From assembly GCF_001637325.1 (NCBI RefSeq), contig NZ_LRXL01000045.1, positions 62,001 to 126,000 of the forward strand: a DNA stretch of 64,000 nt. Direction: 5' to 3'. The DNA comes from Cochleicola gelatinilyticus. GTDB taxonomy: Bacteria > Bacteroidota > Bacteroidia > Flavobacteriales > Flavobacteriaceae. The position numbers were made by a program, and so were the translations under genes. Positions 5,814 through 50,823 of this stretch are shown here, piece after piece. The first letter of the stretch is position 1, and each line of letters starts with the position of its first letter. The notes under the pieces are model-generated. The model was given only the letters and a program-made list of their open reading frames with translations. It ran no database searches and was not told the origin of the DNA.

Positions 5814-6211
5814 GCTGCGAAATTAGAGATTAATTTCGATTCAGTTAGTAGATTTTTGTTCTAATAAAAAAATGCTACTATAACTTGAATTGATAGTTTT
5901 TGGGGAATTCTTACAACCCGATCTCTTAATAATCGTGGAAATAGGATAATTAAATAAGTAGGATAATTTAAAGAGTGGACTTTATTTGTGCAGAAATGAA
6001 GTAGGATCGTATTCTAATAAATTCTATTCAACATAATATAAATTATAGTACAAATGTTCATTATGTTGTTTAAGCCATTGTTTCAATTTGATAGCTATAA
6101 TGTAGTATTATGTAAAATATCCCAGGAGCATTCGTTTACATAAGAATAATTAGAACTTGGGTCATTAAACTTATAAGCGGTTTGCTTCGCAGCGTTTATT
6201 TAAAACATTTG
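5814..6211. other. Non-coding stretch upstream of the exporter, with two palindromic elements
   Basis: No credible gene is seen. It holds the promoter region of the exporter (A/T-rich, next to 5814) and two members of the palindromic element family listed separately (6031-6113 and the degraded 6136-6233). Base composition is very AT-rich and the stop-codon density is high on both strands. Confidence 0.6.
6031..6113 (+). repeat. Palindromic attC-like element, copy 1 (short form)
   Basis: ACATAATA (6031-6038) pairs perfectly with TATTATGT (6106-6113), and ATTATAG (6042-6048) pairs with CTATAAT (6095-6101). The two stems are separated by 3 nt on the left and 4 nt on the right. In the longer copy at 11009-11164 the outer stem is ACATAACG/CGTTATGT, so two base pairs changed on both sides together. 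This two-box, spacer, two-box arrangement is like an integron attC site, although the core GTTATGT does not fit GTTRRRY. Confidence 0.6.
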
Positions 6212-6233
6212 TATCTATAATTAGCCGTTATGT
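6136..6233 (+). repeat. Palindromic attC-like element, copy 2 (degraded left arm)
   Basis: The right side, CTATAAT-TAGC-CGTTATGT (6215-6233), is nearly the same as in the copy at 11144-11162. The left side retains TTTACATAA (6135-6143) but has lost the inner box. It marks the left edge of the long repeat that continues to about 6790. Confidence 0.5.
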
Positions 6234-6790
6234 AAAATAGCCGCTACCAAGCGCTCGATTGTTTTATAAAATCAAATTGCTCTAGCAATTTATTTTACAC
6301 ACAATTATCCAACGCTTGCCAACGCCAAAATAAAAGCTAACCTTTTTGCTCTTATTAAAAATCGCGTATTTGATTAAATGTACGTCATAAAAAATTTTAG
6401 ACGATTCTCGTAAGCTTGCCACAAGAGCATAAATTTTATGAAATCGAGTTTTTACGAGATTCACGAACTCCTTTAAAGTTTTTGCAAATAATTAAATAAG
6501 TGAGTAAAAATAAAATTCTATGCACTTGTTTTAATTAGAACTTCAATTAATCTTTTTTTTTATATTTCACTATCTTTTGTCTTGAAACAAAAGAAACAAA
6601 AATTCAAGGCTGCATATAATTTTGGAAACAATTACGGCTCATTCGCTATATTTTAGGAAACATTAGAACTGCTTAACATTGCTTTGAAATCCTTTGTATA
6701 ATTGAAACTCTTAAAAAACTGTATTACTAAACCCCTAAAATATGCACGCTCATTTCTCCTATTGTTTTGACCAAAATTTTATGAGGCCAA
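6212..6790 (+). repeat. Long dispersed repeat, copy R1
   Basis: This stretch matches 11143-11657 over nearly all its length, for example ATAGCCGCTACCAAG near 6238, TCGTAAGCTTGCCACAAGAG near 6409, CTTTTGTCTTGAAACAAAAG near 6573 and CACGCTCATTTCTCC near 6746. About 80 bases near 6433-6520 are specific to this copy. The right part (from about 6639) also matches 16231-16380. It lies directly downstream of the minus-strand fusion gene ending at 6838. No convincing conserved open frame runs through the copies, so it is treated as non-coding. Confidence 0.85.
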
Positions 6791-6837
6791 GGTAAAATCG
6801 AGATTCTATTTTACATAATGTTTTTAAATAACCTATA

Positions 6838-9348
6838 TTAGTTTTCCTTTTTTGCTTTCATCTCTTCAGAATGAAGTCTTTTAGCCTCATTAAAACTGTT
6901 CACAAAGTCTTTAGTATTAGTAGATAATTCAGATAATAATTCATAATACAGTTTGTCTCCATTATCACCATTGGTTAAAATCACTACACCTTGTTTTAAA
7001 TCTGGAAATAGTTGCATTATGGTACGTACTCCTGGATCTCTTCCGTCATGATACATCATTTTTTGCCCTGATTTAAGTTTAACCGACATCCAACCATTGC
7101 CATATTTAACAAGGTCTCTAAATAACGATGAATTTTGTTCCGTCATTTCGGCATATAGTGTGTTTGAGATTCCGGCACCTTCTAAAATGTGAACCCCAAA
7201 TTTTAAATAATCGTTTGCTGTTGCTAAAATATTTCCGGCTCCACTTGCATTATAGTATTTATAGGTCTCGAGCATTTTGCCTTCTGCATTATAATTTTCA
7301 GCATAATTATTTGGGTTCATTGTACCATTCCACCAAAACCTTATGTTTTTCATGTCTTGTTTATTAAATAATACCTTTTGAACAATATCTTCCATTGGTG
7401 TTTTGAATTTTGCTTCTAAACTCCGCATCACATAATCAAAACCTTCTCCTGAATACTCTACTTTTTCTCCTGGCTCAAACAAGAATTGAAGTTTTCCTGA
7501 CTCCGTTTGAAATCTCCAGTTTGGGAAACCAGTTTGCATATTTAAAACAAGTCGTGTTGTTATTTTTTTCGTTCTAGGATCATCCTTAATATCTGGATCC
7601 ATCCAATAATTATATAAAGGTTCATCTAAATCCCATAAGCCCAAATCTACCAACTTATAGATCGTTGTAGCCAAAATTGGTTTTGTTATGGATGCCACCT
7701 TAAAAACAGTATTGTTAGTTGCTTTTTCACCATTACTTTGTACACCAAAGGTTTTTGAATAGGTAATTTTATTATCATTAATAAGGCCAACACTTACTGT
7801 AGGCACATTGTAAGTTACCATCCAACCTTTAATTTTTTCTTCTAAAGCAGCATTAATTTCAAAACTGTTATAATCTACATGTTGATGATCGTAGCTTATC
7901 ACGCGAGTTAACTTCCAACCATCATCTGTATTGTTCCAAAGTTGAACAATTTTAGCCATGTCCATTAAAAACTCCGTACCATCTTTTCTAGTTTCATAAA
8001 ATTTATGATCTGCAATTTGCATGACGCCATAATTGATTAGAGGAAATATTTCTAGTGATTCCTTTATCAATTCACGACGCTGAAAGTTCTTTTCTCCAGC
8101 ATTTTGCTTTTTCCAATTGCGCTTAAAACCGTTAATGAAACTTTCCGAAGTTATATTGGTTAAACCTCCTTTATCGTGATAAAATTCAAAATCAGGTGAC
8201 AATGCTTTTTGTAAATAGGCATCATCTTGTGTGTTAAAAGCCGCATTAAATAGTAAGCTATCTTGCTTAAATATAGTTTCTATTAATTGCGCTTTACTTT
8301 CTTCTTTTTGATATAACGCAAACACCTCATTAACTAAATCCTTAAAACCTTTATTTTGTGCATTAGTATTATAAGCAATAGAAACATTTAGTGTTGGAAA
8401 ATAAACAACCCAAGAACGAAAACCATCAATGCCTCCTGTATGACCAATAGCATCGGCATCATCTAAAGTATAGTTCATTAACCCAAGACCATACAAGTCT
8501 TTTGGAGGTAACATTTTTTTCAAGCTTCCGTTAGAGATAATCTTATTGCTAAAAAGTAAATTGATAAATCTATTTAAATCTGTTGGTGTAGATACAATAC
8601 CTCCAGCACCTAAAGGCATAGAGTGATGAACTGTTGAACTTAACGCCCAATTTTCTTTCTTCTCATAGGAAACCGCTTCGTTTTTTTGGGTTCCCATGAT
8701 ACCACCATAATAGGTGCTGGTCAATTTATAGGGTTTGATGATACGATCATTCAAAACTTCTGAAAACGATTTACCTTCAATATCTTCTAAAATATAAGAC
8801 AGAATCACATAACCATTGTTATTATATAACTGCTCTGCGTCTGGCTCTGACTGTACACCTAACTTCACAAACTGTGCTAGCATTTCTGTTCTGGTATGTT
8901 CGATTTCAATCCATTTTGCCATGTCTTCATTATGAACAATTTCTTTAAAACCACTTCTGTGACGCAATAAATGTTCAATGGTAATCCTTTTTGCATTTGG
9001 AAGTTTTGGAAAATACGTTGCAAGCTTGGTATCCAAACGTAACTTGCCTTCTTCTACAAGTTGCATTATCATTGTAGCTGTCATCGTTTTTGAGATACTA
9101 CCAATTCTATATCTTGTTTGTAGAATTGTTGGTGTTTTGGTAACTATATTTTGATAACCGAAAGCACGATTATACACTTCGTTTCCATGCTTAAAAATAG
9201 AGATGCTACCATGACCAAGATCATTGCGTTCAATGGTATCTAAATAGGCATCGATAGTTTTGTTTTTGTTGAATTGTGCGTTTGCCTGTAGCGAAAAAAA
9301 GGCAATAAAAAGGATAGCGATTACTCGCGAAATTGTAAATGATTTCAT
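6838..9348 (-). CDS. Secreted beta-lactamase/NTF2-like/beta-lactamase triple fusion
   Basis: An 836-residue exported protein (signal peptide 1-25 ending ANAQ) made of two serine beta-lactamase (class C/PBP4*-like) domains around an NTF2-like (DUF4440-type) domain. Domain 1 (about 30-345) has SISK at 84-87, YNN at 175-177 and HTGG at 303-306, all three active-site motifs. The middle domain is at about 355-495. Domain 2 (about 498-815) has SITK at 553-556, YSG at 632-634 (Asn of YxN replaced) and HDGR at 767-770 (third motif altered). Such proteins hydrolyse esters, D-amino acid peptides or other amides in the periplasm; true drug resistance is unproven. The gene lies 35 bases after a small membrane-protein gene, so it is in the operon driven from the divergent ECF-type promoter. 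Confidence 0.88.
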   Translation of the reverse strand: MKSFTISRVIAILFIAFFSLQANAQFNKNKTIDAYLDTIERNDLGHGSISIFKHGNEVYNRAFGYQNIVTKTPTILQTRYRIGSISKTMTATMIMQLVEEGKLRLDTKLATYFPKLPNAKRITIEHLLRHRSGFKEIVHNEDMAKWIEIEHTRTEMLAQFVKLGVQSEPDAEQLYNNNGYVILSYILEDIEGKSFSEVLNDRIIKPYKLTSTYYGGIMGTQKNEAVSYEKKENWALSSTVHHSMPLGAGGIVSTPTDLNRFINLLFSNKIISNGSLKKMLPPKDLYGLGLMNYTLDDADAIGHTGGIDGFRSWVVYFPTLNVSIAYNTNAQNKGFKDLVNEVFALYQKEESKAQLIETIFKQDSLLFNAAFNTQDDAYLQKALSPDFEFYHDKGGLTNITSESFINGFKRNWKKQNAGEKNFQRRELIKESLEIFPLINYGVMQIADHKFYETRKDGTEFLMDMAKIVQLWNNTDDGWKLTRVISYDHQHVDYNSFEINAALEEKIKGWMVTYNVPTVSVGLINDNKITYSKTFGVQSNGEKATNNTVFKVASITKPILATTIYKLVDLGLWDLDEPLYNYWMDPDIKDDPRTKKITTRLVLNMQTGFPNWRFQTESGKLQFLFEPGEKVEYSGEGFDYVMRSLEAKFKTPMEDIVQKVLFNKQDMKNIRFWWNGTMNPNNYAENYNAEGKMLETYKYYNASGAGNILATANDYLKFGVHILEGAGISNTLYAEMTEQNSSLFRDLVKYGNGWMSVKLKSGQKMMYHDGRDPGVRTIMQLFPDLKQGVVILTNGDNGDKLYYELLSELSTNTKDFVNSFNEAKRLHSEEMKAKKEN

Positions 9349-9383
9349 GTTCGTTTTTGATTAATTGATGATTTTTTGTAGTC

Positions 9384-9707
9384 TTATTTTTTTCGAAGGA
9401 TAAGATAACTACTTACTAAACCTATTCCTCCAAATAGAAATACCATTGATGTATAGGCTATTTCTTCTTCCAAAAGATTATTTTCATAAAGCAGATTTCC
9501 TATTAAGGAACCTATTGCTATACCAACTCCCAACAATCCAAATTTTAAAGCATCAGCTCTAAAGAACGGTTTTGGAAAATGTTCTGGTTGATCTGCAAAC
9601 AGTTCAAAAAGTTTCATACGTTCTCTATGTCTCGTGGTAAAAAATAAGTAAGCGATTCCTAGAATCAAACCTCCTATTATAAACATTGATACGATATCTG
9701 CATCCAT
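9384..9707 (-). CDS. DUF6249-like small membrane protein
   Basis: A 107-residue membrane protein read from the ATG at 9707. The longest frame starts at 9803 but would run through both promoters of the divergent region, so the inner start (MDADIVSMF) is preferred. It has an N-terminal helix (about 7-24), a charged segment RHRERMKLFELFADQPEHFP typical of the DUF6249 group found beside ECF sigma factors, and two more helices (about 53-70 and 84-103). It probably forms an operon with the downstream triple-fusion gene (35-base gap). A modulatory role in sigma signalling is an inference from position. Confidence 0.72.
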   Translation of the reverse strand: MDADIVSMFIIGGLILGIAYLFFTTRHRERMKLFELFADQPEHFPKPFFRADALKFGLLGVGIAIGSLIGNLLYENNLLEEEIAYTSMVFLFGGIGLVSSYLILRKK

Positions 9708-9731
9708 AAGTTGTAATTTTGTGTTCTCTTC

Positions 9732-9761
9732 GTAAGATGCAAGTAAAACGAAAGAGGTTAC
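9732..9761 (-). promoter_or_regulatory. ECF-type promoter, leftward copy
   Basis: On the minus strand the sequence reads GTAACC, 15 bases, GCATCTTAC. GTAACC is the complement of 9756-9761 and GCATCTTAC the complement of 9732-9740. The start codon at 9707 lies 25 bases further on. The same two boxes with the same 15-base spacer occur on the plus strand at 9796-9825, ahead of the sigma factor gene. Identity of both boxes and spacing points to one sigma factor reading both. Confidence 0.78.
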
Positions 9762-9795
9762 AAAAAAGGTGCTTTTATTTTTTTTTAGAAAAGCT

Positions 9796-9825
9796 GTAAC
9801 CATAAACAGAAAAGTTGCATCTTAC
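9796..9825 (+). promoter_or_regulatory. ECF-type promoter, rightward copy (autoregulatory)
   Basis: GTAACC at 9796-9801, 15 bases, GCATCTTAC at 9817-9825. It is the mirror image of the leftward copy at 9732-9761 and ends six bases before the sigma factor ATG at 9832, so the transcript would be almost leaderless. GTAAC-type -35 boxes are common among ECF sigma promoters. Confidence 0.78.
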
Positions 9826-9831
9826 ATAATA

Positions 9832-10395
9832 ATGACTAACCAAGATGACAGCTTTTATATCAATAAGGTGAAACAAGGCGACTTGCAGGCTTATACCTAT
9901 CTTGTTGACAAGTACAAGAATATGGCGTTTAGTATTGCCTTGAAGTTGTCAAGAAATACTGAAGATGCTGAAGATGCTGTACAGGAAAGTTTTATTAAGG
10001 CCTATCATAAAATCGATACGTTTGCATATAATTCTAAATTCTCTACGTGGCTATATAGTATTGTTTATAGAACAACAGCTTATAACTTGAGGAAGAATAC
10101 GATTAGCACGCAAGAGATTACTGATACAACGTTTCACAATCTTGAAGATGATGAAAATACTGATTTATCTGACGCTGAACAAAAACGATTTATTACAGAA
10201 GCAATAGATAAACTTCCAGAAATAGAATCAATAATTATAACATTATTCTACCTGAATGATAACACGATTGCCGAAATTGAAAGTATCACAGGACTATCAA
10301 AATCTAATATTAAAGTAAAACTTTTTAGAGCTCGTAAGGCATTAAAAATAGAACTGAAACATATTTTAAAAGATGAAATAAAATCCATTTTATAA
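9832..10395 (+). CDS. ECF-type RNA polymerase sigma factor
   Basis: A 187-residue sigma-70 family protein of the ECF class. Region 2 spans about residues 15-85, with AYTYLVDKYKNMAFSIALKLSRN, EDAVQESFIKAYHKIDTF and STWLYSIVYRTTAYNLRK; region 4 spans about 120-172, with DKLPEIESIIITLFYLNDNTIAEIESITGLSKSNIKVKLFRARKALK. The ATG at 9832 was chosen rather than 9769 because the latter lies upstream of the promoter boxes. Its stop overlaps the start of the next gene (TAATG), which implies translational coupling to a putative anti-sigma protein. Mirror-image promoters suggest it transcribes itself and the divergent membrane-protein/hydrolase operon. Confidence 0.9.
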   Translation: MTNQDDSFYINKVKQGDLQAYTYLVDKYKNMAFSIALKLSRNTEDAEDAVQESFIKAYHKIDTFAYNSKFSTWLYSIVYRTTAYNLRKNTISTQEITDTTFHNLEDDENTDLSDAEQKRFITEAIDKLPEIESIIITLFYLNDNTIAEIESITGLSKSNIKVKLFRARKALKIELKHILKDEIKSIL

Positions 10396-10865
10396 TGAAG
10401 AAAAAAATAGAAGAACAAGCCTTTTCTAATGTGTTAAAAAGAGCGACATTAAAGAAACCAAGTCCGCTTTTTACAGATCATATATTAGAGCAAATTCAAC
10501 AGGAACAAATGGAAGCAGCTTCTAGTGAGCTCATTTTTGAAAAAACAATTAAAACTGCTGAAACTGCCTATGCTCCATCTAATTTATCATATAATGTTAT
10601 ATCAAAACTGGAATCTCAAAAACAGACCTCGGTTGAATATGGTTCATTAATAAGTAAAAAAGTGAAATTTGTTTATGCGACTCTTATGAGTTTGGGCGTA
10701 TTTTATTTGTTGCTTTCTAGCACATTCTCATTAGATAAGTTACTAAATAGCTTTAGTGAATATTCAAGTAATTTTACATTGCTGTTTACAAGTTGCTTTT
10801 GCCTTATAGCTTTTGCTTTTTTAGATGTGTTTTTAAAAAATAGTAAGACTTTTAATATTTATTAA
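10395..10865 (+). CDS. Putative anti-sigma membrane protein
   Basis: A 156-residue protein whose start codon overlaps the stop of the ECF sigma gene by one base. The N-terminal 90 residues are cytoplasmic in character and helical; two membrane helices follow (about 92-112 and 127-146). It lacks the HxxxCxxC zinc motif of ZAS anti-sigma factors. The call rests on gene order, translational overlap and topology, which are typical for sigma/anti-sigma pairs; similarity to a named anti-sigma family is not seen. The gene ends just before the long repeat region begins. Confidence 0.65.
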   Translation: MKKKIEEQAFSNVLKRATLKKPSPLFTDHILEQIQQEQMEAASSELIFEKTIKTAETAYAPSNLSYNVISKLESQKQTSVEYGSLISKKVKFVYATLMSLGVFYLLLSSTFSLDKLLNSFSEYSSNFTLLFTSCFCLIAFAFLDVFLKNSKTFNIY

Positions 10866-10866
10866 T

Positions 10867-11008
10867 CCTTTTCCATTACACACACATTATGCTTCCCTCC
10901 TACGTCGTCGCATAAAAAGTGTTCCATTAACATCGTAGAAGACGCTTTTGAGAATAAATTTTTTAAAGAACCTGTAGTAACAACTTTCGCTTTTAGTCAA
11001 AGCTCAAG
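10867..11008 (+). repeat. Left flank of the dispersed repeat, copy L2
   Basis: This segment matches 15865-16048: CTCCTACGTCGTCGCATAAAA, AGAATAAATTTTTTAA and the run into TTACATAACG are shared. The other copy has about 55 extra bases after AAAAAGTGT. In one frame both copies encode INIVE(D/E)-(A/T)F-(E/Q)NKFFK, with conservative differences, so a short coding remnant is possible. Confidence 0.75.
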
Positions 11009-11164
11009 TTACATAACGCAGAACATTATAGTACATTTTATAAATAGGTTTACCCGGTGGGTGAAGCTATTTATAACACAGATGGCGCGTTGGCGAAATT
11101 ATGATGTTTCGAACTACCATTCTATTTATAAAAAAAATGATAGCTATAATTAGACGTTATGTAA
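11009..11164 (+). repeat. Palindromic attC-like element, copy 3 (best preserved)
   Basis: TTACATAACG (11009-11018) pairs perfectly with CGTTATGTAA (11155-11164); ATTATAG (11025-11031) pairs with CTATAAT (11144-11150); TTTATAAATAG (11037-11047) pairs with CTATTTATAAA (11122-11132). The left spacer between the first two boxes is 6 nt and the right one 4 nt. The centre contains GC-richer pieces (CCCGGTGGG, GGCGCGTTGGCG). The size, about 156 nt, and the two-box design are like a long attC site, but no integrase gene is in view. Confidence 0.7.
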
Positions 11165-11657
11165 AATAGCCGCTACCAAGGGCTCGATTGTTTTATAAAA
11201 TCAAATTGCTTTGGCAATTTATTTTACACACAATTATCCATCGCTCGCTAACGCCAAAATAAAAGCTAACCTTTTTACTCTTATTAAAAATCGCGTATTC
11301 GATAAAATGTACGTAATAAAAAATTTTAGACGATTCTCGTAAGCTTGCCACAAGAGCATAAAATTACTCAGCGAGATAATTTCTATGCACTTGTTAACTT
11401 TAGAAGTTCAATTAATCCTTTTTTTAATGATTCATTATCTTTTGTCTTGAAACAAAAGAAACAAAAATTCAAGGCTGCATATAATTTTGGAAACAATTAA
11501 CGGCTTATTCGCTATATTTTAGGAAACATTAGAACTTATTAAGACTGCTTTGAAATCCCTTTTATAATTGTAACTCTTAAAAAACGGTTTTGCTAAACCC
11601 CTAAAATATACACGCTCATTTCTCCTTATTGTTTTACCAAAATTTTATGAGGCCAAA
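11143..11657 (+). repeat. Long dispersed repeat, copy R2
   Basis: This copy matches 6212-6790 closely, with scattered substitutions and without about 80 bases. It lies just downstream of the minus-strand CBM9-beta-lactamase gene ending at 11692, in the same relation as copy R1 to the triple-fusion gene. Its right third also matches 16231-16380. Confidence 0.85.
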
Positions 11658-11691
11658 CTGAACTTCAAAAGTCTTAAATTAAATGGTAATT

Positions 11692-13704
11692 CTAATTTTT
11701 ACCTCTCATAAGAAAGGCTTCTAATTCTTGACTCAATTTATGACCTGTATTGCTATTAGTGAATATAACAAATCCCATTTTCTTTTCTGTAAACAAAACA
11801 AATTCGCTTTGAAAGTCCCAATTACTGCCACCGTGCATTATGGCTTTTCCGTGATGTGTATCTTCTACGAAAAACCCTAATCCCAATCCTAAATCCCAAT
11901 ATGAGTTATTTGGTGATTCAAACCCTTTTGCTTTTACAATTCTCTTGAACATAGCATCGTATTGCTCTTCAGATAGTCCTTTCCTGTTACTCAATGCCGC
12001 TACAAACTCTGAAAAAGTCTTTGCTTCTGTGAGCATACTATGAGCAACACCAGGTTCTAATGCCATATCCCAATAGGTCGGATTTCCGGCTAAATGACCT
12101 TGTACCATTTTTAATTTGTCATTCCCTTTAAAATACAAGGGTTGCATTTGTAATGGCTCGATAACTTCTTCCTGAATTAATGTAAGAATGTCTTTTCCTG
12201 TAACTTTCTCAACTACCCTATGAAGATACTGGAAGGCTTCACCAGAATAACCATACGCTGTTCCTGGTTTGAAAAGCAATTCTGTTTGTCTCCCTTTTTT
12301 CCAACCTGATGGTCCTCCCCAAGCCCAATTAGGTAATCCAGATTGATGAGACAACACCATACGAGCAGTTATTAATTTATAATCTTCAATATGTTCAATA
12401 TTTTTAAATGGTAGTAAGGTATATAAAGGCGTATCTAAATCAATAACATCTCTATCTGCTAATCTGTTAACCACAAAAGCAAAAACGGCTTTGGTTACTG
12501 ATGCTGCTTGAAAAACGTTATCATCTTCAATTTTCTTTTTAGTGAGCATACTCTGCACACCATAATTTTTATGATAAACAAGCTTACCGTTATTGATTAA
12601 ACCCAAAGAAACGCCAGGAATTAAATAATAATCCATATGGGCTTCAATAAAGGCATCCACATCGGCTTTGGAAGCATCATTGAAATTATAAAGAACACCT
12701 TTACTTTTAAATTTGTCAATTGGTGGCTCAACTATATCTAATTGTAATGCGCCTGCTTTGGTTTCCATGTTCGATTTAATAATTATGTTAACTGCATTGG
12801 TTTCTTTAATTTGTTTTTGATTAAAATACCCATCACCAGCTAAAGGGTTTGTTAGTCTTTCAGCAAATGTTACATAATAGTTACCTGAAGGTAATTTTAA
12901 ATTATAGCGATTAAGCGAATCTATACTTGCATCAACATATAATTTATTATTTATAACTGAAGTAATACGAACCTTTTTGGGCAAGGGCTGTTCTATTTCA
13001 TTTTTCCAACCTATAAAACCTTCAAGTTGTCCAAATGTGGTTTTTGGTGCTGTTAAAACCACATCACCTAATTGACCTGAATTATATTCTTTATTAAATC
13101 CATTTCCATAACCCAAATCCCAATTGATATAGGTCGTTTGATCTTGATTGGTATCCACATCACCAAACATAAAATCAACCCCTATTGATGTGTTTTCTTG
13201 AATATATTTACCTAAAAACAGACGACCTTCAAAAAAGTATTTACCTTCTTTTTTTATAATTTTATACTCAAAATCATCTAAAGTCAAAAACTGATGTATA
13301 GGGTCTTTTGCTGAAGTATGCTTTACCATTTTTAGAGCATCATTTTCAATAGAAAAAACAATCATACTTGGTGCATTAGGTATATGTGCAGCATTGATGT
13401 AAATGTCGATAAAATCTTTTTTAGAATAAACATCGTCCATTATTTCAATATTAAAATAAAGTGATTGCGCCTTAATGTTATAGCCTAAATTTATTTGGGC
13501 ATTAAAATCATTTTTGCCATCTAGAGGATTAGCAACGACTTCTTTAACTGAAAATGTCGAAATGTTTGTAGGCCAATCATTTAAATTGCCATCTATGGTA
13601 ATATTGTTTACATGAATGGCGAATGCTATTTTTCCGTTATGAGCGTATGTAGTTTGGGTTAGTGCAAGAAAGCACAACCCTAATAAAAATTTAAATAGTG
13701 TCAT
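11692..13704 (-). CDS. Secreted CBM9-like/beta-lactamase fusion
   Basis: A 670-residue exported protein. After a signal peptide (1-21) residues about 25-218 resemble a carbohydrate-binding family 9/DOMON-type domain (ITIDGNLNDWP, DDVYSKKDFIDIYINA, GVDFMFGDVD, INWDLGYGN). A short beta domain (about 222-320) links to a serine beta-lactamase domain (about 345-668) with SVTK at 402-405, YSG at 486-488 (Asn of YxN replaced) and HGG at 624-626. The protein probably binds a glycan or wall component and hydrolyses an ester or amide nearby. Its ATG overlaps the end of the upstream BlaR1-like gene by one base, so it is the last gene of a blaI-blaR1-hydrolase operon. Lactam hydrolysis is not shown by the sequence. 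Confidence 0.85.
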   Translation of the reverse strand: MTLFKFLLGLCFLALTQTTYAHNGKIAFAIHVNNITIDGNLNDWPTNISTFSVKEVVANPLDGKNDFNAQINLGYNIKAQSLYFNIEIMDDVYSKKDFIDIYINAAHIPNAPSMIVFSIENDALKMVKHTSAKDPIHQFLTLDDFEYKIIKKEGKYFFEGRLFLGKYIQENTSIGVDFMFGDVDTNQDQTTYINWDLGYGNGFNKEYNSGQLGDVVLTAPKTTFGQLEGFIGWKNEIEQPLPKKVRITSVINNKLYVDASIDSLNRYNLKLPSGNYYVTFAERLTNPLAGDGYFNQKQIKETNAVNIIIKSNMETKAGALQLDIVEPPIDKFKSKGVLYNFNDASKADVDAFIEAHMDYYLIPGVSLGLINNGKLVYHKNYGVQSMLTKKKIEDDNVFQAASVTKAVFAFVVNRLADRDVIDLDTPLYTLLPFKNIEHIEDYKLITARMVLSHQSGLPNWAWGGPSGWKKGRQTELLFKPGTAYGYSGEAFQYLHRVVEKVTGKDILTLIQEEVIEPLQMQPLYFKGNDKLKMVQGHLAGNPTYWDMALEPGVAHSMLTEAKTFSEFVAALSNRKGLSEEQYDAMFKRIVKAKGFESPNNSYWDLGLGLGFFVEDTHHGKAIMHGGSNWDFQSEFVLFTEKKMGFVIFTNSNTGHKLSQELEAFLMRGKN

Positions 13705-15416
13705 TAGTTTTTGTTTAGATAAACGTTTCCGCTTAAAATTTTGAAGTTATAATCAACGTTGGCTTTACCAATTTTTAGACTATGCTTGTTTGTTTTTTGT
13801 GAGTCAAATTCTGAAATGACTTTACCATCTTGAATCTCATAGGAAATGTTTGCATCTAAATCGTTTTGAAGAGCTAATTCTATGTGTCCGCTTGTGGTGG
13901 TAAAGGTTGAACTTTGTGTCGGGTTTTCGGCATAAGACGCTTTAATTCCTCCACTTATTGTATAAGCATTTGTTGCACCAGATACATTTTCCAAATTAAT
14001 AGAACCGCTTATATGGTTTACCATAATAGTATTAGTATTAACATCTTTCACTAAAATATCACCTCCATTTACAGTCCTTAAATTCAGGTTAATACCTTGA
14101 GGAACTTTAATGGTATAGTGCATTTGAAAGGTATAATCAAAACAAGGCTTGCCATTACAATCATTTTGAAACGATAATTCATTGTTTAGCTTATTATACT
14201 TGGCTTGAGGCGAATCTAAATACACAAATTGACCATTATTATCTTCTGTTGTTAGGATATTTATTTCGTCAATACCTCTTTGCAATTCTTTATCAGAAGT
14301 GGCTGAAATGACTTTTTCAATTTCAATTTTCACAACGTCACCATCAAAAGCTTGTATATGAATAGCACCTGTAATATTGCTAATGGATAAAACATTATTT
14401 TTTGATTTATTTGAAAATTTTAACTCTTTTGTTATGATTTCCCTATGGATTTTATTCTCTGTTGCAGTTGAAAGGGTATCTGAACCTAAAGTATTATTTG
14501 TAGGCAAATAGGTCGCATTTAAAATAGAAACCGATAATAGTAACATAGGTACTAAAACCAAGTACTTCCAGCTTGATTGCGCAGAAGATTTTTTTGAATT
14601 CATCATAGTTATTCGTTTTTGTAAGATTGATTGATTATAATTTGTTGTAAAATTTAAAGGATGTTGCGGTACAGAAACTTTGAGCAGGCTCATTTGATAA
14701 CTTTCCGGCTCTACTCCTACCATTATTAGCTCGTTATCTGTTAAAAATTCTAGATTATTAGAAATACTCTTTTTTAACGACCACATTAAAGGATTAAACC
14801 AGAAAATGATAATTCCTAGTTCTGCAATTAGCATATCTATAGAATGGTATTGATTGATATGTACTTTCTCGTGAGCAATGATTTGCTCGTAAGTATCATT
14901 ATTATACAATGTTGGGTTTATAAAAATCCATTTATAAAATGAAAAAGGCGGACTATTATCTGTAAGTTCATAAATCTTAATGGCCCCATCTTTAATGGAT
15001 TCTAACCTGCTTTTTTTATACAGTAGTAATAGAAACTGAATCAAAAATCCAATAAAAAACAAAGCAATTCCACCAAAATAAGCATACCATAAAATTTGAG
15101 AAAGTGAATATGTAGTTGTATCATTTTCAGGTATAAGACTTGTTGCTTCTGTCTCTTCCCTATTTTCTTTTGTTGGTACAGTAACTATCGAATTAGCATC
15201 GCTCTTCCAGTTAAATAATGTAACCTTATTGCTTAATTCTTTATTAATAGAAAGTTGTTGCGGAACTCTTAAAAAAGGTAATGTGGTACTTGCTATTATA
15301 ATTCCTAATAGGATTATTCTATTCAATTTGTAAAAAGTTTCTTTTCGTAATACCAGCAAGTAGAATACGTAGAGTACCGAAAGTAGTATGGTACTATGTA
15401 AAAGATAAGGTATCAT
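13704..15416 (-). CDS. BlaR1/MecR1-type M56 peptidase fused to DUF4097-like beta domain
   Basis: A 570-residue membrane protein. Four hydrophobic helices (about 3-22, 33-48, 107-133 and 290-305) surround an M56 metallopeptidase core with HEKVH at 182-186 and the following helix containing ELGIIIFWFNPLMWSLK, as in BlaR1/MecR1. Instead of the usual penicillin-binding sensor domain, the exported C-terminal part (about 335-568) is a repetitive beta structure like DUF4097 putative adhesin domains (SGSINLENVSGA, SGGIKASY, SGHIELAL). In BlaR1 systems the peptidase inactivates BlaI after signal binding. The sensor replacement means the signal is probably not a classic beta-lactam. It overlaps blaI by four bases and the hydrolase gene by one. 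Confidence 0.86.
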   Translation of the reverse strand: MIPYLLHSTILLSVLYVFYLLVLRKETFYKLNRIILLGIIIASTTLPFLRVPQQLSINKELSNKVTLFNWKSDANSIVTVPTKENREETEATSLIPENDTTTYSLSQILWYAYFGGIALFFIGFLIQFLLLLYKKSRLESIKDGAIKIYELTDNSPPFSFYKWIFINPTLYNNDTYEQIIAHEKVHINQYHSIDMLIAELGIIIFWFNPLMWSLKKSISNNLEFLTDNELIMVGVEPESYQMSLLKVSVPQHPLNFTTNYNQSILQKRITMMNSKKSSAQSSWKYLVLVPMLLLSVSILNATYLPTNNTLGSDTLSTATENKIHREIITKELKFSNKSKNNVLSISNITGAIHIQAFDGDVVKIEIEKVISATSDKELQRGIDEINILTTEDNNGQFVYLDSPQAKYNKLNNELSFQNDCNGKPCFDYTFQMHYTIKVPQGINLNLRTVNGGDILVKDVNTNTIMVNHISGSINLENVSGATNAYTISGGIKASYAENPTQSSTFTTTSGHIELALQNDLDANISYEIQDGKVISEFDSQKTNKHSLKIGKANVDYNFKILSGNVYLNKN

Positions 15417-15775
15417 TTCTTTCTGTTTTTAATTTGATTGATGATTTGTTGTAGTTCTTTTTCATCTATATTTTCTTCTTTAGCGAAAAATGAAATCATT
15501 TTTGAATATGAATTTTCAAAATATTTACCTACCACATCGCTGACAATAGTTTTTTGATATTGCTCCTTTAAAACAACAGGATAATATTGATGTGTTTTCC
15601 CAAAAGAATTATGTGCTAAAAAACCTTTTTCTTCCAATATTCTTACCATTGTAGATACAGAATTGTAATGTGGCTTGGGTTCTGGAAGTTCGTCTATAAT
15701 TTCTTTTACAAAAGCTTTTTCCAACTTCCAAAAAGCTTGCATAATTTGTTCTTCTCTTTTTGCTAATTTTTGCAT
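15413..15775 (-). CDS. blaI: BlaI/MecI family transcriptional repressor
   Basis: A 120-residue winged-helix repressor. MQKLAKREEQIMQAFWKLEKAFVKEIIDELPEPKPHYNSV is the typical Bacteroidota BlaI start, so the ATG at 15775 is preferred to a TTG seven codons upstream. The DNA-binding wing lies at about residues 35-65 (STMVRILEEKGFLAHNSFGKTHQYYPVV) and the C-terminal helices form the dimer. In the family the BlaR1 peptidase cleaves or inactivates this repressor. Its stop overlaps the BlaR1-like start by four bases. Two operator-like dyads lie 28 bases upstream. Confidence 0.92.
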   Translation of the reverse strand: MQKLAKREEQIMQAFWKLEKAFVKEIIDELPEPKPHYNSVSTMVRILEEKGFLAHNSFGKTHQYYPVVLKEQYQKTIVSDVVGKYFENSYSKMISFFAKEENIDEKELQQIINQIKNRKK

Positions 15776-15802
15776 CTCTTTAATTTTCTGAGGCAAACAT
15801 AT

Positions 15803-15838
15803 AACTAATTGATTAGTTACACAACTAATTGGTTAGTT
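15803..15838. promoter_or_regulatory. Double BlaI operator dyad
   Basis: AACTAATTGATTAGTT (15803-15818) is a perfect 7-bp inverted repeat around TG. AACTAATTGGTTAGTT (15823-15838) repeats it with one mismatch. Centres are 20 bp apart, about two helical turns. BlaI/MecI operators in other phyla are ACTA-type dyads (TACA/TGTA), and the location directly before blaI fits autorepression. Confidence 0.82.
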
Positions 15839-15864
15839 TTTGTTTAATAATAGTTAAATTATTC

Positions 15865-16200
15865 ATTTCACACATATTACGCTTCCTCCTACGTCGTCGC
15901 ATAAAAAGTGTTTATTCACAAGGGTATCATTGTTTTAGTGGAGTTCATGCATTTCGTAAACTCGATGTCATTAACATTGTAGAAGAAACTTTTCAGAATA
16001 AATTTTTTAAGAAACTGTAGATAAAATTTCGCTTTTACCTAAGCAAAGTTACATAACGCAGAACATTATAGTACACGTGACATAAAGCAATGATCCGGTG
16101 GATGATTGGTTTTGGCGGCGAGTTGGTGCGCTGGCGGTTGCGTCATCGTGATTCTTCAATCTTAATGGCATTATATGTTGTAATAGTATGTAGTATATTT
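15865..16200 (+). repeat. Dispersed repeat copy L3 with degraded palindromic element (copy 4)
   Basis: The left flank matches 10867-11008 and runs into TTACATAACGCAGAACATTA at 16049-16068, the same left arm as copy 3. The right arm is eroded: only a TTATATGT-like piece near 16171 remains. It marks the right edge of the second 5-kb module. Confidence 0.65.
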
Positions 16201-16230
16201 TAGAAGCATTTGTTTTCAGCAGTCCGCTGG

Positions 16231-16380
16231 AGCCATTCGCTATATTTTAGGAAATATTGGAACTTATTAATTTTCCTATAAAGCAGAATGTTAACTAGAG
16301 CCTTTAAGGAATTGTATTGCTCAACCCCAAAAATATACACGCTCACTCCCCTATTGTTTTGACCAAATTCTTAAGAGGTC
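16231..16380 (+). repeat. Long dispersed repeat, partial copy R3
   Basis: Only the right end of the long repeat is present: ATTCGCTATATTTTAGGAAA, ATATACACGCTCA, CCCTATTGTTTTGACCAAA and AAGAGGTCTG correspond to 6639-6789 and 11500-11655. It lies directly downstream of the minus-strand SDR gene ending at 16392, as the full copies lie downstream of the two hydrolase genes. Confidence 0.75.
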
Positions 16381-16391
16381 TGTATTTTAAA

Positions 16392-17189
16392 CTATTTAAT
16401 TATCTTTTCAGTAAAGTATAATAAACTATTGATTTTCTCTTGACTGTAAGCATCAGGATGTGCCTTGGAGAAACTGCCTTTATCGTTATCATAATAGTGC
16501 CCAGAATTATTGTTATAAATTTTAGATAACGCTAAGTCATATAAAATATCCACACCTTTTTCTGCAGGTGACCAATGTTGTCCATATGCTTCGTTTGCCA
16601 TTTTCGTATTTAATAATGACCCAGGATTTACTGCAATAGTAGTAATAGTAGGATGTTTTTCAGCAAATCTAAAAGACCACATAGTTAAGGCCAGCTTACT
16701 TTGAGCGTAGCTTTCATTAGAATTTACAGTAGCATCACCAGTTAACACATCTTTTTGAACAGTAGATTGTGCTGCCGAACTTAAATTTACAATACGCGTG
16801 TTGTTCCCTTTTTCTAATAAAGAACTTATACGTTCCGTTAAAATATAAGGTGCTACGTAGTTGACGACGATTCTATAATCTAATCCGTTTTTCGCGAAAG
16901 TATCTTTGGTTTTATATATTCCTGCATTGTTGATTAGAACATCTAATTGAGGCACTTCTTTATTTAGTTGTTCTGCGAGTTCTTTTACAGCATTTAAGTC
17001 AGAAAAATCGGCAACCAACCCTTTCACATTCATATTATTTGAAGCTTCTTTTATCTCAGAAACAACAGCATTTATCTTTGCTTCGCTTCTACCATGTACA
17101 TATACGTAATGCCCTTCTTTTGCTAGTTTTAAAGCTGTTAATTTTCCAATACCATCTGTACTTCCTGTGATTAATATATATTTATTCAT
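16392..17189 (-). CDS. Short-chain dehydrogenase/reductase
   Basis: A 265-residue classical SDR. The NAD(P)-binding TGSTDGIGKLTALKLA lies at residues 8-23, the NNAG motif (LDVLINNAGIY) at about 83-93, the catalytic Ser region VNLSSAAQS at about 133-141, and YAQSK (Tyr-x-x-x-Lys) at about 160-164, followed by NPGSLLNTKMA. This layout resembles retinol dehydrogenase-like SDRs acting on lipophilic or aldehyde substrates, but the substrate cannot be read. It is the last member of a minus-strand series from the AraC regulator down, separated by a 157-base gap containing a 9-bp inverted repeat. Cytoplasmic. Confidence 0.88.
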   Translation of the reverse strand: MNKYILITGSTDGIGKLTALKLAKEGHYVYVHGRSEAKINAVVSEIKEASNNMNVKGLVADFSDLNAVKELAEQLNKEVPQLDVLINNAGIYKTKDTFAKNGLDYRIVVNYVAPYILTERISSLLEKGNNTRIVNLSSAAQSTVQKDVLTGDATVNSNESYAQSKLALTMWSFRFAEKHPTITTIAVNPGSLLNTKMANEAYGQHWSPAEKGVDILYDLALSKIYNNNSGHYYDNDKGSFSKAHPDAYSQEKINSLLYFTEKIIK

Positions 17190-39574: not shown

Positions 39575-39657
39575 ATGTAAAAACGAGTAACAACAGATCC
39601 CCCTATGCTGTTAAAAAGATTCTTACGACGGTGAGAATCAAAAAAATGATAGTTACT

Positions 39658-42600
39658 ATGAACAAACCTACTATTCTAAGAATATCCCTAATTCTTACTG
39701 TCCTATTTTTGGGCTTACAAACATATGCCCAAAATTATGTCCCCTTTACTCCACGATTTAATCAAGACCTTAAAGGTGATATTGTTTTAATTGGAAACAA
39801 TATTCTGGGTCCCGATAACGGTCCTTTTAATGATAACGGAGTGTATAATCACAACGTTGATATGCAGTATATCGACATCGATGGGGATGCTACAACATTT
39901 AGCTCTTCAAGTGCAGATCTGGAAATTCCTAATCCGAACTGCTATAACATTATTTATGCAGGATTGTATTGGGGTGCTGTGACTAGTGGAGATCAACCCA
40001 TAACTAGTGTAAAATTTAAAGGTCCAACAGGAGGATATAATGACATTACAGGAACATTAATTTTTGATGCTGGAGATATCTCGGTAGATGGAGGAAATAG
40101 TTTCCCATATGCTTGTTTTGCTGATGTAACGTCTATAGTTACAGGGTTTGGAAATGATCTAGGAACTTATACTGTAGCGAATGTTTCGAGTGCATTAGGG
40201 GAAACTGGGTCTTTCGATCCTTATAATGGTACAGGATATTCTTCGGGCTGGTCACTATTTGTTGTGTATGAAGACCCTACCCTACCAGGAAAATCGATTA
40301 CAAGTTTCGATGGTTTTAGCTCCATAAGTGTTTCAGGAAATAATCCCAGTCTCAACATACCAGTTTCTGGTTTTAGAACTGTGCCAGCACCCGCTCCGGT
40401 TCGGGCAAATTTTGCTTTTGCTACGTTAGAAGGTGATAAACCGATTACAGGAGATCGACTAAAATTAAATGGTACCAACTTAACAACATTAGATCGCACA
40501 TCGAATAACTTTTTTAATAGTTCGGTAACGCAGCTGGATGCCACACCAGTGAACAATAGAAATCCAAACAGCACCAATACCTTAGGTTTCGATACGGGAG
40601 TTATTGCAGTACCAAATCCAGGAAATACCGTTATCGAAAACGACGCTACTTCGGCTATCGTACGATTAGAAACCAGTGGCGATACGTATTTTCAATACTT
40701 TTTTGCATTTGCTGTTGAAATTATAGAGCCTGATATTGTACTTACAAAAATTGTTGAAGACGAATTTGGCAATGATATTGGAAACCAAGTTGTAGATCTG
40801 GGACAGGAATTAAATTATGTAATTGGATTTCAGAATGTAGGAAATGACAACGCAACAAATTTTACAATTAGAGACATACTTCCTATTAACATTATTTTCG
40901 AATACCCAACTGGATTAACATTACCACCGGGTGTAACAGTAGCGAGTTACGATCCAGCTACCCGAGAGATTATTTTTGATATTGAGAATTACTTGGTGGA
41001 AGAAAACGATCCCGTTTATGAAATTCGAATACAAGCTCAAGTAGTAGATTCCTGTCAGCATTTAGTAGATGCTTGTTCTAATATAATAAACAATCAAGCA
41101 TTTGCCACGTATGAAGGAACATTAAATCCGAATTTTGTAATTACCGATGATCCTAGTTACAGTGAGAATACTGGATGTCTTATTAGTCCTCAAGCTACTA
41201 ATTTCTTAGCGGACCTAAATGACTGTATTTTTATACAGAACGAAACACTTTGCGGAAATAGCACCGAATTAACTGCTGCAAATGGTTATGATTCTTATTC
41301 TTGGTCTACAAGTCCTACGGGAACTCCGGTTATAGGAACCACTCAAACTATTACAGTAACCGAAACTGGCACTTATTATTCTTTTAATACAGCGGCGGCA
41401 CCGTGCCAGTCTATTGTTCAGCAATATGAAGTTACATTATATGGTGGGAATATTACCAATCCTGTGATCCCTTATGCTGACGAAGTAGTTACTTGTCCGA
41501 ACGACGGAAAGCTACTTCCAAACATCTTTTTATGCGGTGAGGATGATTTTAGAGAGATCGCTACTGAAATTGATGGAGCGACTTCAATAATTTGGGAAAA
41601 ACTTGACGAGTCTAGTTGTCCACCTGTGGATGATACAGATTGTGCAAATGAAAATAATGCCTGTACTTGGAATGAGGTTGGCATGGGAGCTGATTACACG
41701 GTAAATACTTCGGGACAATATCGACTCACCATTAATTATAATGGAGGATGTTTTAATCAGTTTTATTTTAATGTTTACCAGAATTTATTAGATCCAACGG
41801 TTACTGCCACCGATATTATCTGTACAACCCCAGGATCTATTACTGTAGGGAATGTACCCAGCGGATATGAATACAGTATCGATGGGAGTAATTACCAAGC
41901 AAGTCCTGTATTTACAGTACCAACCCCTGGTTTTTATACAGTTTATATACGTCAAATTGGTGTGCCTGAAGGAGCTTGTATTTTTACAGTTCCTGAAGTG
42001 TTGGTAAGAGAACGTGATTTTACAGTATCGACTATTATAAACCAACCTTTATGTAACGGTGACAAAGGGAATATATACTTGGCTGCAAATGATGCCGATC
42101 CACAATATTTCTTTTCATTATTTCAAGGAGGAACACTTGTAAATAGTGTGGGACCTATTGTAGAAAACAACTATGCTTTTGAAAACTTGAATCCTGGTAC
42201 GTATACGGCAATGGTTGAAACAGAAGACGGGTGTATGTATTCTGAAGAAATCACGATAACCGAACCTCCTTTATTAACGGCTACAGCAGCGATCACGATT
42301 CCATTAACTTGTACAGATGGAGAGATTACTGTATATCCTGAAGGGGGAACAGCCCCATATTTCTATTTTGTGAATAATGATACCGATTTTCAAACCAATC
42401 CAGAAATCATAGTTTCTACACCTGGAGAATACAACATCACAGTGGTCGATTCAAATAATTGTAGTGCAGAGACTACCATTACTATTGAAGCTACCCCAGC
42501 TCCAGATTTCACAGTTACAACCACCGATATTTTATGTGCGGATTCTGGCGATACGGGTACTATTACAATCAATGTTACCAATCCGAATGGAAACAGCCTT

Positions 42601-45600
42601 CAATATAGTCTTGGAGGGTTAGTTTATACGTCTTCCAATGTTTTTACTGGTCTTAATGCAGGAACCTATACTGTATTTGTACAATATACCAATGGGCCTT
42701 CCATTTGTATATCCGATCCGCAATCTGTTACCATTACCGCAGCTTCAGCAATCTCAGGTGAAGCAGAATTAACCGCTCCCTATACATGTACTTCAACAGG
42801 AACAATTACGGTTACAAATGTTACTGGGGGTACGGCGCCCTATTTATACAGTATTGACGGAATTACTTTTCAGACAAGTCCAGTATTTTCAGATCTAACT
42901 CCAGGAACTTATACTGTTATCATTCAAGATGCGAATGAATGCACTTTTGCGGCTAATGAGATCACCATTCCAACATTAGATCCACCCACCGATCTTATGT
43001 TCAGTGCAACGCCTGTTACTTGTCCTACGAATACAGCTTCAGTAATTATAACAGGAACTACAGGTGGTATTGCTCCCTTGGAATATCAGATTATTGCACC
43101 AGCATCTGCTGCAACACCGTATCAAACTTCAACTACATTTTCAGATTTAGCTCCCGATATTTATACATTTCAAGTTAGAGATGCAAATGAGTGTGTGTAT
43201 AGTGAATCTTACGCTATAGATCCTATTCCTGCAATAAATATCGTTAGTGAAACTACAAGTGATGTTAGTTGTTTTGGAGCGTCTGACGGTACTGCACAAT
43301 TTATTATTTCAGGAACCAGCACTTTTGAATATACCATCAACGGTGGTGCACCTAATACTGGCACCTCTCCTATTACACTGACCGGATTAAATGCAGGGGA
43401 TTATACCATAGTTGTCACAGATACAAATACCAATTGTGAGGCCACTGCAACGGCTACCATTTCTGGTCCGCAAGCCCCATTAACTGTTTCGGTTGACACA
43501 ACCCCGATTACGTGTATTGATAGTGGTAGTGCGACAATTAATGCTTCTGGGGGCTGGGGAGGATTTACGTATACGCTTTTACTACCGGATGCTACATCAC
43601 TACCGATTCAAAACACCCCTATTTTTAATAACCTATCACAAGATGGAACGTATACCATAAGTGTAGAAGATGCCAATGGATGTATTGTTATTGAAACGTT
43701 TGTCTTAACAATTCCAAATCCACCAGTAGCAACTGTAAGTGTAACTTCAGATGTATGTTATGATGCTGATACAGGTGCAATTATTATAATAGAGGTACTT
43801 TCTGGAGAGGCCCCTTTTGAATTCAGTATAAATGGAGGCCCTTTTCAGCAGGACAATACATTCTCGAATTTAGTTCCCGGAACGTATACCATTACAGTTA
43901 GGGATGCTTTTGGTTGTGAAACCATTTTACCAGCAGAAATTATTGCTCCTCAATTACTAGTGAATGCAGTTTTAACGAAAGATTTAGATTGTACGAGTAC
44001 GCCCGATGCTGAAATTACAGGCACAATTTCTGGAGGAAGTGCTCCTTTCATGTATGCTGTATCTTTTAATGGAGGTGCATTTACTCCCTTAGGGTCAACC
44101 GGTTCGCCTTTTACCTATGTGACATCAAACCCAGGTACATATCAATTTCAAGTTACCGACGACAGTGGCTGTGAAACCACTTCACAGATTCTTACTGTGA
44201 ATCCAATTTCATTACCCAATATTGCTGTTGTGGTTCAAACTGAGCCTATTTTGTGTAACGGAGATGAAAATGGTGCCATTGATATCACCATCGATCCTAC
44301 ACAAGGAACTCCACCATTTCTAATAAACGTTACGAATACAACCACGGGAACAGACTATGGAACGCAAACTTCAGGGTTGCCTGCTGGGGACTATACCATC
44401 ACGGTTACTGATGCAAAAGAATGTGCTGCAACCGAAACTATTACTATTGATCAGCCAGATCCAATCGTAGTGGATTATGACTCGATCGATATTACATGTG
44501 GACCAGGAGGAGTATCACAAGGATCTATAATTATTAATAGCGTATTTGGAGGTGTAGCACCTTATAACTATTTCGTGACAGGGTCTAATGGATATTCAAA
44601 TTCTGAATTAAATGCAACTGGCTCAACCTCGGTAAGTTTCGATGTGGTTGATTTTGGTTTGTATGAAATAAACGTAGTAGATGCCAACGGATGTTCTGTG
44701 TTGATTGAAGATGTCTTGGTTGCATCTCCTCCTTCAGATCTAGATATCTCAATTGATACAACAGTAGATTGTTCTACGGGAGGACAGGCTGTTGTAAGCG
44801 TAAGTTCTACATTGGGAAGTACGGGGCCGTTCTGGTTTAGTATTTATCAAGGTCCTATTTCGGTATATCCAGACCCACCTGGATCATGGATTCCTGAAAA
44901 TCCTGCAGGAAGTCAATCTACCACGTTCGACAATTTAACTCCAGGAGTGACTTATACATTCATTGTATACGATGAATCTACAAATTGCACCTATTATGAA
45001 CCAGCCACAACACCGATTCCAACAAACTCTACGTTGACCTTAGATGCAGTGAGTTCAGATAATATTACCTGCACCGGAAGTGCCGATGGCGATGTTTCTT
45101 TTACTGTAAATAGTGTATATGGAACTCCAGTAGATGTAACGTATGAAATATTCGATTCGTTAACCTTGCTAAGTTCAGGAATTTCAGGAACAGGAACAGT
45201 GCCTGCCGGAGGTTCGCTAGCAGTAACAGATTTAGGACCCCTTCCCTTTGGAACCTATTATGTATTAATTGAAGAAACTGCAGGACCTAATACAGGTTGT
45301 GGAGTAGTGACTGCGCCTTTTAGTATTACCGAATCTGCTATTTTATTAAGTTTAACAGCTTCAGTAGACCAGAATGCAAATTGTAATGCGAATTCAGGAG
45401 TGGTAAGTGCAATTGCTCAAAATGGAACGCCTCCTTATCTTTATCAGATTACGACCACGCCAGCTGCGCCCGTTGCGACAGACCCTTCATGGAATTCAGC
45501 AAGTACCTTTAATGTGGATGCGGGCGATTACTATGTGCATGCTCTAGATGCCTATGGTTGTATAGTTTCAAGTCCGGTACAGATCGTTCCTATGGATGCT

Positions 45601-50362: not shown

Positions 50363-50823
50363 TCAATTGTAATAGTATTAGGAGCCGGGAACCTGCTATT
50401 CGCTGTATCTTTTCTTTATAGTCTCCTTTAACTAGAAGCGACATATTTAGAAGTAAATCCCTCATTTTTTCATATCCTACATAAAAGAAAAGGATGCCGC
50501 TGCTATCAGGGCTAATGATTAAACTATTTTTATTAAGACCTATTAATAAGAATATTACAAATAATTATATAAACTATCTGTTTATGTATAATTAATGAGG
50601 ATTTTCTGTTTTTGAATATACTTTTTAAACTTTTATCAAATAATTCAATCTACCCACTATAAACTTTATGAATTAATTTAAATGGCACTTTCATACTTTC
50701 CTAAATAAATGAAATACCTTTATAATAGAATTCTATAAAATGCATTAAAAGATAGAACATTGCGTTGCTGCTAAAAGCAGCATAATAATTTAAGGAAAAC
50801 AAAAAGTATACATACAAAGTAAT
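50363..50823. other. Non-coding gap with a dispersed-type hairpin
   Basis: No gene is supported. Between about 50379 and 50515 lies a hairpin-rich element: ATCTTTTCTTTAT (50407-50419) pairs with ATAAAAGAAAAGGAT (50480-50494) inside the frame GGGAACCTGCTATTCGCTG and CCGCTGCTATCAGGGCTAA. A second small palindrome, TTGCTGCT-AAA-AGCAGCA, is at 50765-50782, before the ZIP gene. Confidence 0.6.

Follow-up and report, generated by a model that had tools for sequence, protein, structure and literature searches.

dif is the single site at which a bacterial cell separates joined chromosomes, and it is needed for dimer resolution. Xer-exploiting mobile elements (IMEXs) such as CTXphi, VGJphi, TLCphi, the gonococcal island and LME-1 of Legionella lie at dif in hosts that possess the Xer genes, no recombinase is detected in them, and after their insertion dif is restored on one side while the site on the other side is altered (PMC4246890; PMC9765430). 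The attP site of CTXphi consists of two inverted dif-like sites with centres of 12 bp and 5-7 bp, which lie 90 bp apart, and its single strand folds into a XerC site (PMC4246890). Accessory genes between dif-like sites are also found in the dif/pdif modules and dif-module islands of Acinetobacter, which form linear arrays of several modules and are attributed to XerCD; their sites have 6-bp centres and alternate between the C/D and D/C orientation, and the main dif is held to be uninvolved (PMC12907356). In Bacteroidetes hosts, the microvirus proviruses of the Alpavirinae use dif-like sites without a recombinase and in some cases have, like CTXphi, a second such site (PMC3091885). In integron arrays and CALINs, finally, cassettes of the same orientation are stacked, and their 3' end is marked by an imperfect inverted repeat.

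Here, a stretch of 64,000 nt from Cochleicola gelatinilyticus (the window; contig NZ_LRXL01000045.1, positions 62,001 to 126,000) was analyzed together with related loci, and accessory-gene packages of ~5 kb, often carrying anti-phage defences, were found stacked beside dif in many marine Flavobacteriaceae. In the features of location and sequence that were compared, these cassettes appear to be IMEX-like: they are inserted at dif, they mimic dif, and no recombinase of their own was detected while the host has Xer genes. Known IMEXs are, however, phages, islands or plasmids, whereas here many cassettes with unrelated accessory operons share their non-coding ends alone, are stacked and occur family-wide. 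In contrast to the Acinetobacter modules they keep one orientation, have centres of 7 and 9 nt and long conserved ends, and use the main dif as anchor. The Alpavirinae proviruses are single viral genomes with capsid and replication genes, whereas no viral genes were recognised among the most frequent Pfam families of the cassette cargo; compared with integrons and CALINs, the cassettes lack IntI, carry dif-like boxes, are multi-gene units of 5 kb and are anchored at dif instead of attI. No earlier description joining Flavobacteriaceae, dif, Xer and cassettes was found in the openly accessible journal papers searched. Judged from sequence, the best explanation is very probably that of IMEX-like cassettes which have no recombinase, exploit the Xer system and stack at dif.

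Layout of the array in the window

The original prediction had described two consecutive modules framed by copies of one long repeat. Self-BLAST of the window located these repeats where they had been placed. The right flank matched with 94% identity over 225 bp (6212-6436 and 11141-11365) and 91% over 280 bp (6513-6790 and 11378-11656), and a third, decayed copy was found at 16234-16378 (75-76% over 147 bp). For the left flank, 86% over 111 bp (10925-11035 and 15969-16075) and 92% over 50 bp (10874-10923 and 15864-15912) were obtained. Spacings of 4.87-4.93 kb on the right flank and 4.99-5.04 kb on the left flank fit the predicted 4.93 and 5.02 kb. Within the whole 3.39-Mb genome both the right-flank repeat and the conserved left-flank site are confined to this array; in relatives the repeat recurs across genera with up to 90% identity and is therefore not due to chance. 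No Rfam RNA was found in the flanks, and a tRNA attachment site was ruled out, as the window is without any tRNA. Elsewhere in the window, a Flavo-1 RNA (Rfam RF01705) is located at 50385-50517 (-), and an ORF of 3233 aa at 39631-49332 (+) lies upstream of it.

Read on the minus strand, each cassette consists of a TAIL of ~165 bp, the cargo and a HEAD of ~530 bp, and only these ends, ~0.5 kb in length, are conserved among cassettes. The HEAD begins just after the gene before it has ended in its stop codon, and terminates in the site S1 (TTTTACATAACGNCTAATTATAG), with a second site, S1b (TTTTACATAATACTACATTATAG), usually present ~116 bp further on. A loop of variable length (about 30-160 bp) follows, and then the TAIL, which starts with the site S2 (GTACTATAATGTTCTGCGTTATGTAACTT). 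S1/S1b and S2 are inverted copies of one site type, in which a central region separates the C-arm CTATAA from the D-arm TTATGTAA. All three mimic dif in having its arms, but their centres are altered: among sites with consensus arms, central regions of 6 nt were counted for dif (n=31), 7 nt for S1/S1b (n=105) and 9 nt for S2 (n=134), with other lengths in 15 cases. Beside the XerC arm, S2 and dif have few bases in common.

Table 1. Features of the cassette array in the window (positions in nt).
Feature	Position	Strand	Remarks
Site taken as chromosomal dif	6026-6053	-	C-arm TTGTACTATAA, 6-nt centre TTTATA, D-arm TTATGTTGAAT; single match in the genome; array end and presumed entry point
HEAD, cassette A	6086-6789	-	profile match 3.5e-149; S1 at 6215-6235, S1b at 6095-6115, then loop joined to dif
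Cargo, cassette A	6838-10865	mixed	836-aa hydrolase (-), DUF6249 (-), ECF sigma (+), 156-aa protein (+)
TAIL, cassette A	10848-11048	-	profile match 7.6e-60; its minus-strand start is S2 (11009-11031), exact
Loop from S1 of cassette B to S2 of cassette A	11032-11143	-	small inverted repeat at 11038-11076
HEAD, cassette B	11141-11655	-	profile match 1e-126; terminates in S1 (11144-11164); S1b missing
Cargo, cassette B	11692-15796	-	CBM9-PF00144 hydrolase, M56 (BlaR1-like)-DUF4097 protein, BlaI-type repressor
TAIL, cassette B	15848-16088	-	two pieces, profile matches 1.6e-34 and 2.3e-10; S2 at 16049-16071
Decayed HEAD, older third cassette	16190-16380	-	profile match 6.4e-17
Short-chain dehydrogenase gene	16392-17189	-	probable last gene of the third cassette

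As part of the whole Xer-cassette explanation, the region is thus very likely to hold at least two intact cassettes and a decayed one beside the chromosomal dif (Table 1). A profile search of the window found no TAIL for the third cassette; the dehydrogenase gene probably belongs to it, because only 12 bp separate its stop codon from the decayed HEAD, an arrangement like that of cassettes A and B. Pfam matches were obtained for the ECF sigma factor, DUF6249, BlaI/Penicillinase_R, M56 (BlaR1-like) with DUF4097, and CBM9 with PF00144, in agreement with the gene names given before; the 156-aa product encoded after the sigma gene had no Pfam family match. The exception is the 836-aa protein of cassette A, formerly called a triple-fusion hydrolase, for which two PF00144 (beta-lactamase-fold) stretches and no third one are supported.

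The end of the array is formed by a site that had previously been overlooked and that is here taken, from its sequence and setting, as the chromosomal dif. It resembles dif of E. coli, with agreement at 10 of 11 positions in the XerD arm. Of 60 relatives, 38 contain the dif core, among them members of other families of the order, and most of these have it once per genome; a control with the reversed pattern was almost empty. Sampling of GC skew in two relatives served to check the position of the terminus. In G014, a complete genome, the skew turns from + to - between 2.90 and 3.10 Mb, with dif at 2.9985 Mb, and in G024 a less clear, approximate change lies near the dif site. The D-arm and the right flank of dif vary with the host (TTATGTTGAAT here, TTATGTCAAA in G026 and G034).

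Anchoring at dif and exchange of contents

S1 or S1b stands directly upstream of dif in 25 of the 52 dif sites examined (own count). All 96 HEAD and TAIL elements in 35 dif-bearing loci are oriented like dif and located on the side of its XerC arm, and strand use was uniform in 108 loci and mixed in none. Several arrays away from dif (L042, L101, L043, L055) terminate in an element C-arm followed by a dif-like D-arm, as expected given entry at secondary sites. By this placement the idea that the repeat is an intergenic sequence found at random sites, which the original prediction had named as a possible refutation, was rejected. The dif-like sites within the boundaries and the anchoring of the array on one side of dif point to Xer site-specific integration. 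The earlier view of the boundaries as repeats that could allow excision or exchange is incomplete: they are not just homologous repeats, as they contain inverted dif-like sites and the array is anchored at dif.

Comparison of genomes gave a similar picture of consecutive cassettes, since homologous boundaries frame wholly different contents in other genomes and the sites of congeners are differently filled. Synteny between the congeners G017 and G099 (84%) reaches as far as dif and extends across it, and the distance from dif to the next common segment is 1.4 kb in G017 and 42 kb, with extra HEADs and TAILs, in G099; in this comparison the newer material adjoins dif. The same cassette was found in Winogradskyella pelagia and Algibacter pectinivorans (87.5% over 4.1 kb), in an Algibacter MAG and a Lacinutrix MAG (90.4%), and in that Lacinutrix MAG and genome G020 (88.8%). 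In such inter-genus pairs the homology sets in at a distance of 0-16 bp from S2, whereas similarity in the 200 bp upstream is only 57%. Locus L146 carries a homologue of module B immediately after S2 (BlaI 77%, M56 54%, hydrolase 43%).

Some pairs of HEADs share 81-94% identity over hundreds of bp, enough for recombination between them, which would suit plain segmental exchange by homologous recombination between the long repeats, with the closeness to dif being incidental. The boundary between cassettes A and B, where junction comparison revealed S1 fused to the flank that normally lies behind S1b, could likewise have arisen either by homologous recombination or by Xer exchange. Segmental exchange, however, leaves the one-sided placement at dif, the uniform orientation and the secondary dif-like half-sites unexplained, as well as the start of homology at S2 with unrelated sequence upstream, and we regard it as improbable. 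Next to Xer-dependent capture, homologous recombination between repeats may serve as a secondary shuffling route.

Two further observations concern insertion sites. At six dif sites without S1/S1b (L099, L106, L202, L203, L209, L213) another upstream loop element (..ATATCTGCAATTATGTAAAAT..) was present, which suggests further families of dif-inserted elements. In three genomes cassette ends were located just downstream of related helicase-like genes (L042 at ~7800, L119 at ~2700, and L190), forming a secondary hotspot at which the array of L042 ends in a dif-like half-site.

Distribution and cargo of the cassettes

Exact copies of the S2 26-mer were present in over 117 stretches from GTDB species genomes, almost all of them from named Flavobacteriaceae, with Algibacter, Lacinutrix, Polaribacter, Aquimarina, Tenacibaculum, Maribacter, Winogradskyella and Zobellia among the genera. 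Allowing up to 2 mismatches, S2 was detected in 41 of 199 Flavobacteriaceae genera sampled, and a phylum-wide sample of 198 genomes gave 4 matches, all in this family. Short contigs assigned to MAGs of Pleomorphochaeta and Saprospiraceae (L117, L149) also carry S2; here misbinning is likely and transfer outside the family the alternative.

From the loci fetched, 68 distinct complete cassettes, defined as TAIL to next HEAD, were obtained. Their median length is 4.9 kb (range 1.7-12.1 kb) with a median of 4 ORFs, and of the 244 larger ORFs 200 are directed at the HEAD. PADLOC matches to defence systems were counted by us in at least 16 of the 68 cassettes. They comprise type I RM (G005, L156), a short-pAgo-like system with phospholipase (L126), CBASS proteins (L052, L142, L179), Pycsar (L107), PsyrTA (G032), Gabija (L171), type II methylases (L053, L163, L166, L201), PDC-S06 (L183) and further families. 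Other cargo includes RND efflux, dehydrogenases, LytTR two-component systems and hydrolases of PF00144 that resemble those of the window. A beta-lactamase-fold protein, noted earlier in both modules, is not their defining feature, given this open-ended cargo with defence systems in many cassettes. A protein of ~135 aa starting like ..LEFLKSELKS.., possibly a shared accessory factor, is encoded close to the end of several cassettes, those with CBASS and Pycsar among them (L052, L076, L092, L107, L142, L143, L178, L179).

The median size of 4.9 kb would suit the genome of an ssDNA phage, and a long conserved non-coding region needs a function. HEAD and TAIL might accordingly be read as origin and packaging signal, and the cassettes as satellites of a dif-integrating ssDNA phage in which accessory genes replace phage genes; the attachment-site layout resembles that of CTXphi (PMC4246890), and microvirus proviruses of Bacteroidetes use dif-like sites (PMC3091885). 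Against this, viral contigs contained no exact S1 or S2, the boundary had no match in phage records or plasmids, and phage families were absent among the most frequent Pfam families listed for 211 cargo proteins. A satellite origin is thus unlikely, if less so than segmental exchange. It would not conflict with the Xer route, to which it could add the step of transfer, and helper-dependent satellites may lack phage genes.

A proposed route of capture through host Xer recombinases

Among 264 cargo ORFs, phmmer searches with XerC, XerD and a nearby integrase as queries found no recombinase resembling any of the three. As no recombination enzyme was found in the cassettes, entry most likely proceeds via the host Xer recombinases. 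The host genome (G000) encodes a XerD above the equivalog cut-off; its XerC candidate is the best match, yet stays below the NCBIfam cut-off (308.8 vs 335). In a separate case, L051, a gene for a 399-aa tyrosine recombinase (6677-7876) ends 37 bp before a TAIL, and none similar was found inside other cassettes. The dif position, the one-sided order and orientation, the exchange of contents, the S2 boundary and the lack of a XerC/D-like recombinase in the cargo are well supported by sequence; Xer dependence and a circular intermediate are inferred. Counted against this explanation are the low score of the XerC candidate, the few bases that S2 and dif share beside the XerC arm, and the conservation of the ends alone; in addition, neither the circular form nor an empty site in the same species was seen.

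A cassette would be a mobile unit composed of a TAIL with S2, cargo with its own regulators, a HEAD with inverted S1 and S1b, and a short loop. In the free circle, S1b, loop and S2 would adjoin, giving two dif-like sites in inverted arrangement as in CTXphi attP (PMC4246890). Host XerC and XerD would join the site of the circle to dif at the border between XerC arm and central region, yielding the order left chromosome, C-arm, S2, TAIL, cargo, HEAD, S1b, loop, C-arm, dif centre and D-arm, right chromosome. The observed junctions would result: host C-arm and S2 centre would meet at the left one, and the loop and C-arm of the element would meet the dif centre and D-arm of the host at the right one. 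That the D-arm and right flank vary with the host agrees with an exchange at this border. On the left S2 would remain, whose 9-nt centre does not suit ordinary Xer recombination, and an intact dif would be rebuilt on the right, so that the next cassette would enter beside dif and older ones would be pushed away. Carriage of cassettes from cell to cell is possible by transformation, conjugation or a helper phage.

The inverted-pair layout, with unequal spacers of 5 and 7 nt between boxes, is also what an integron-type array would offer if S1b-loop-S2 were an attC site moved by a present or lost integron integrase, and the ordered cassettes with ORFs mostly directed toward the site and exchangeable contents would fit such an array. 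No IntI was found in 18 genomes, however: none of the matches reached the TIGR02249 cut-off, and each consisted of two separate blocks, with no match in between near positions 180-239. In addition, the boxes match dif, the anchor is dif and not attI, and the cassettes are multi-gene units of about 5 kb. On the negative integrase search and the dif match the integron array was rejected, and of the explanations considered it is the least probable.

Provided that Xer is used, the chances are roughly even that cassettes enter as a folded single strand through a CTXphi-like hairpin. Single-strand folding of the attachment site was modestly better than that of shuffled sequences (z -1.2 to -3.0) and its arms hardly vary, so pairing of the ssDNA is putative.

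For the family as a whole, we lean towards an integron-like capture without a dedicated integrase, in which multi-gene cassettes with common non-coding ends stack at dif via XerCD and which serves as a major route for anti-phage defence and other accessory operons. If so, a widespread, mainly marine family would gain a cassette-capture platform on an essential cell-cycle site and not on an integron integrase, and there would be an explanation for how complete defence systems (Gabija, CBASS, Pycsar, PsyrTA, RM, short pAgo) might be exchanged between genera. The signatures of HEAD and TAIL make the neighbourhood of dif a searchable catalogue of accessory operons and, as many cassettes hold no recognised defence family, also a place to seek new systems. 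The question is raised how the chromosome tolerates stacked cassettes at a site needed for dimer resolution.

A 40-bp piece of the HEAD (window 11438-11477) is also part of tandem repeats of ~300-350 bp in other Flavobacteriales (L184, L185, also G063 and G038); the piece in common with the ~300-bp tandem repeats of L184 and L185, which belong to another family, was set aside as a separate intergenic repeat. The loops between S1b and S2 or dif fall into several classes (window 11038-11076; L041, L089, L119, L134, L142, L166, L167), one of which holds a hairpin whose tip, ATCCAC(T/A)GGAT, is conserved and whose stems apparently co-vary.
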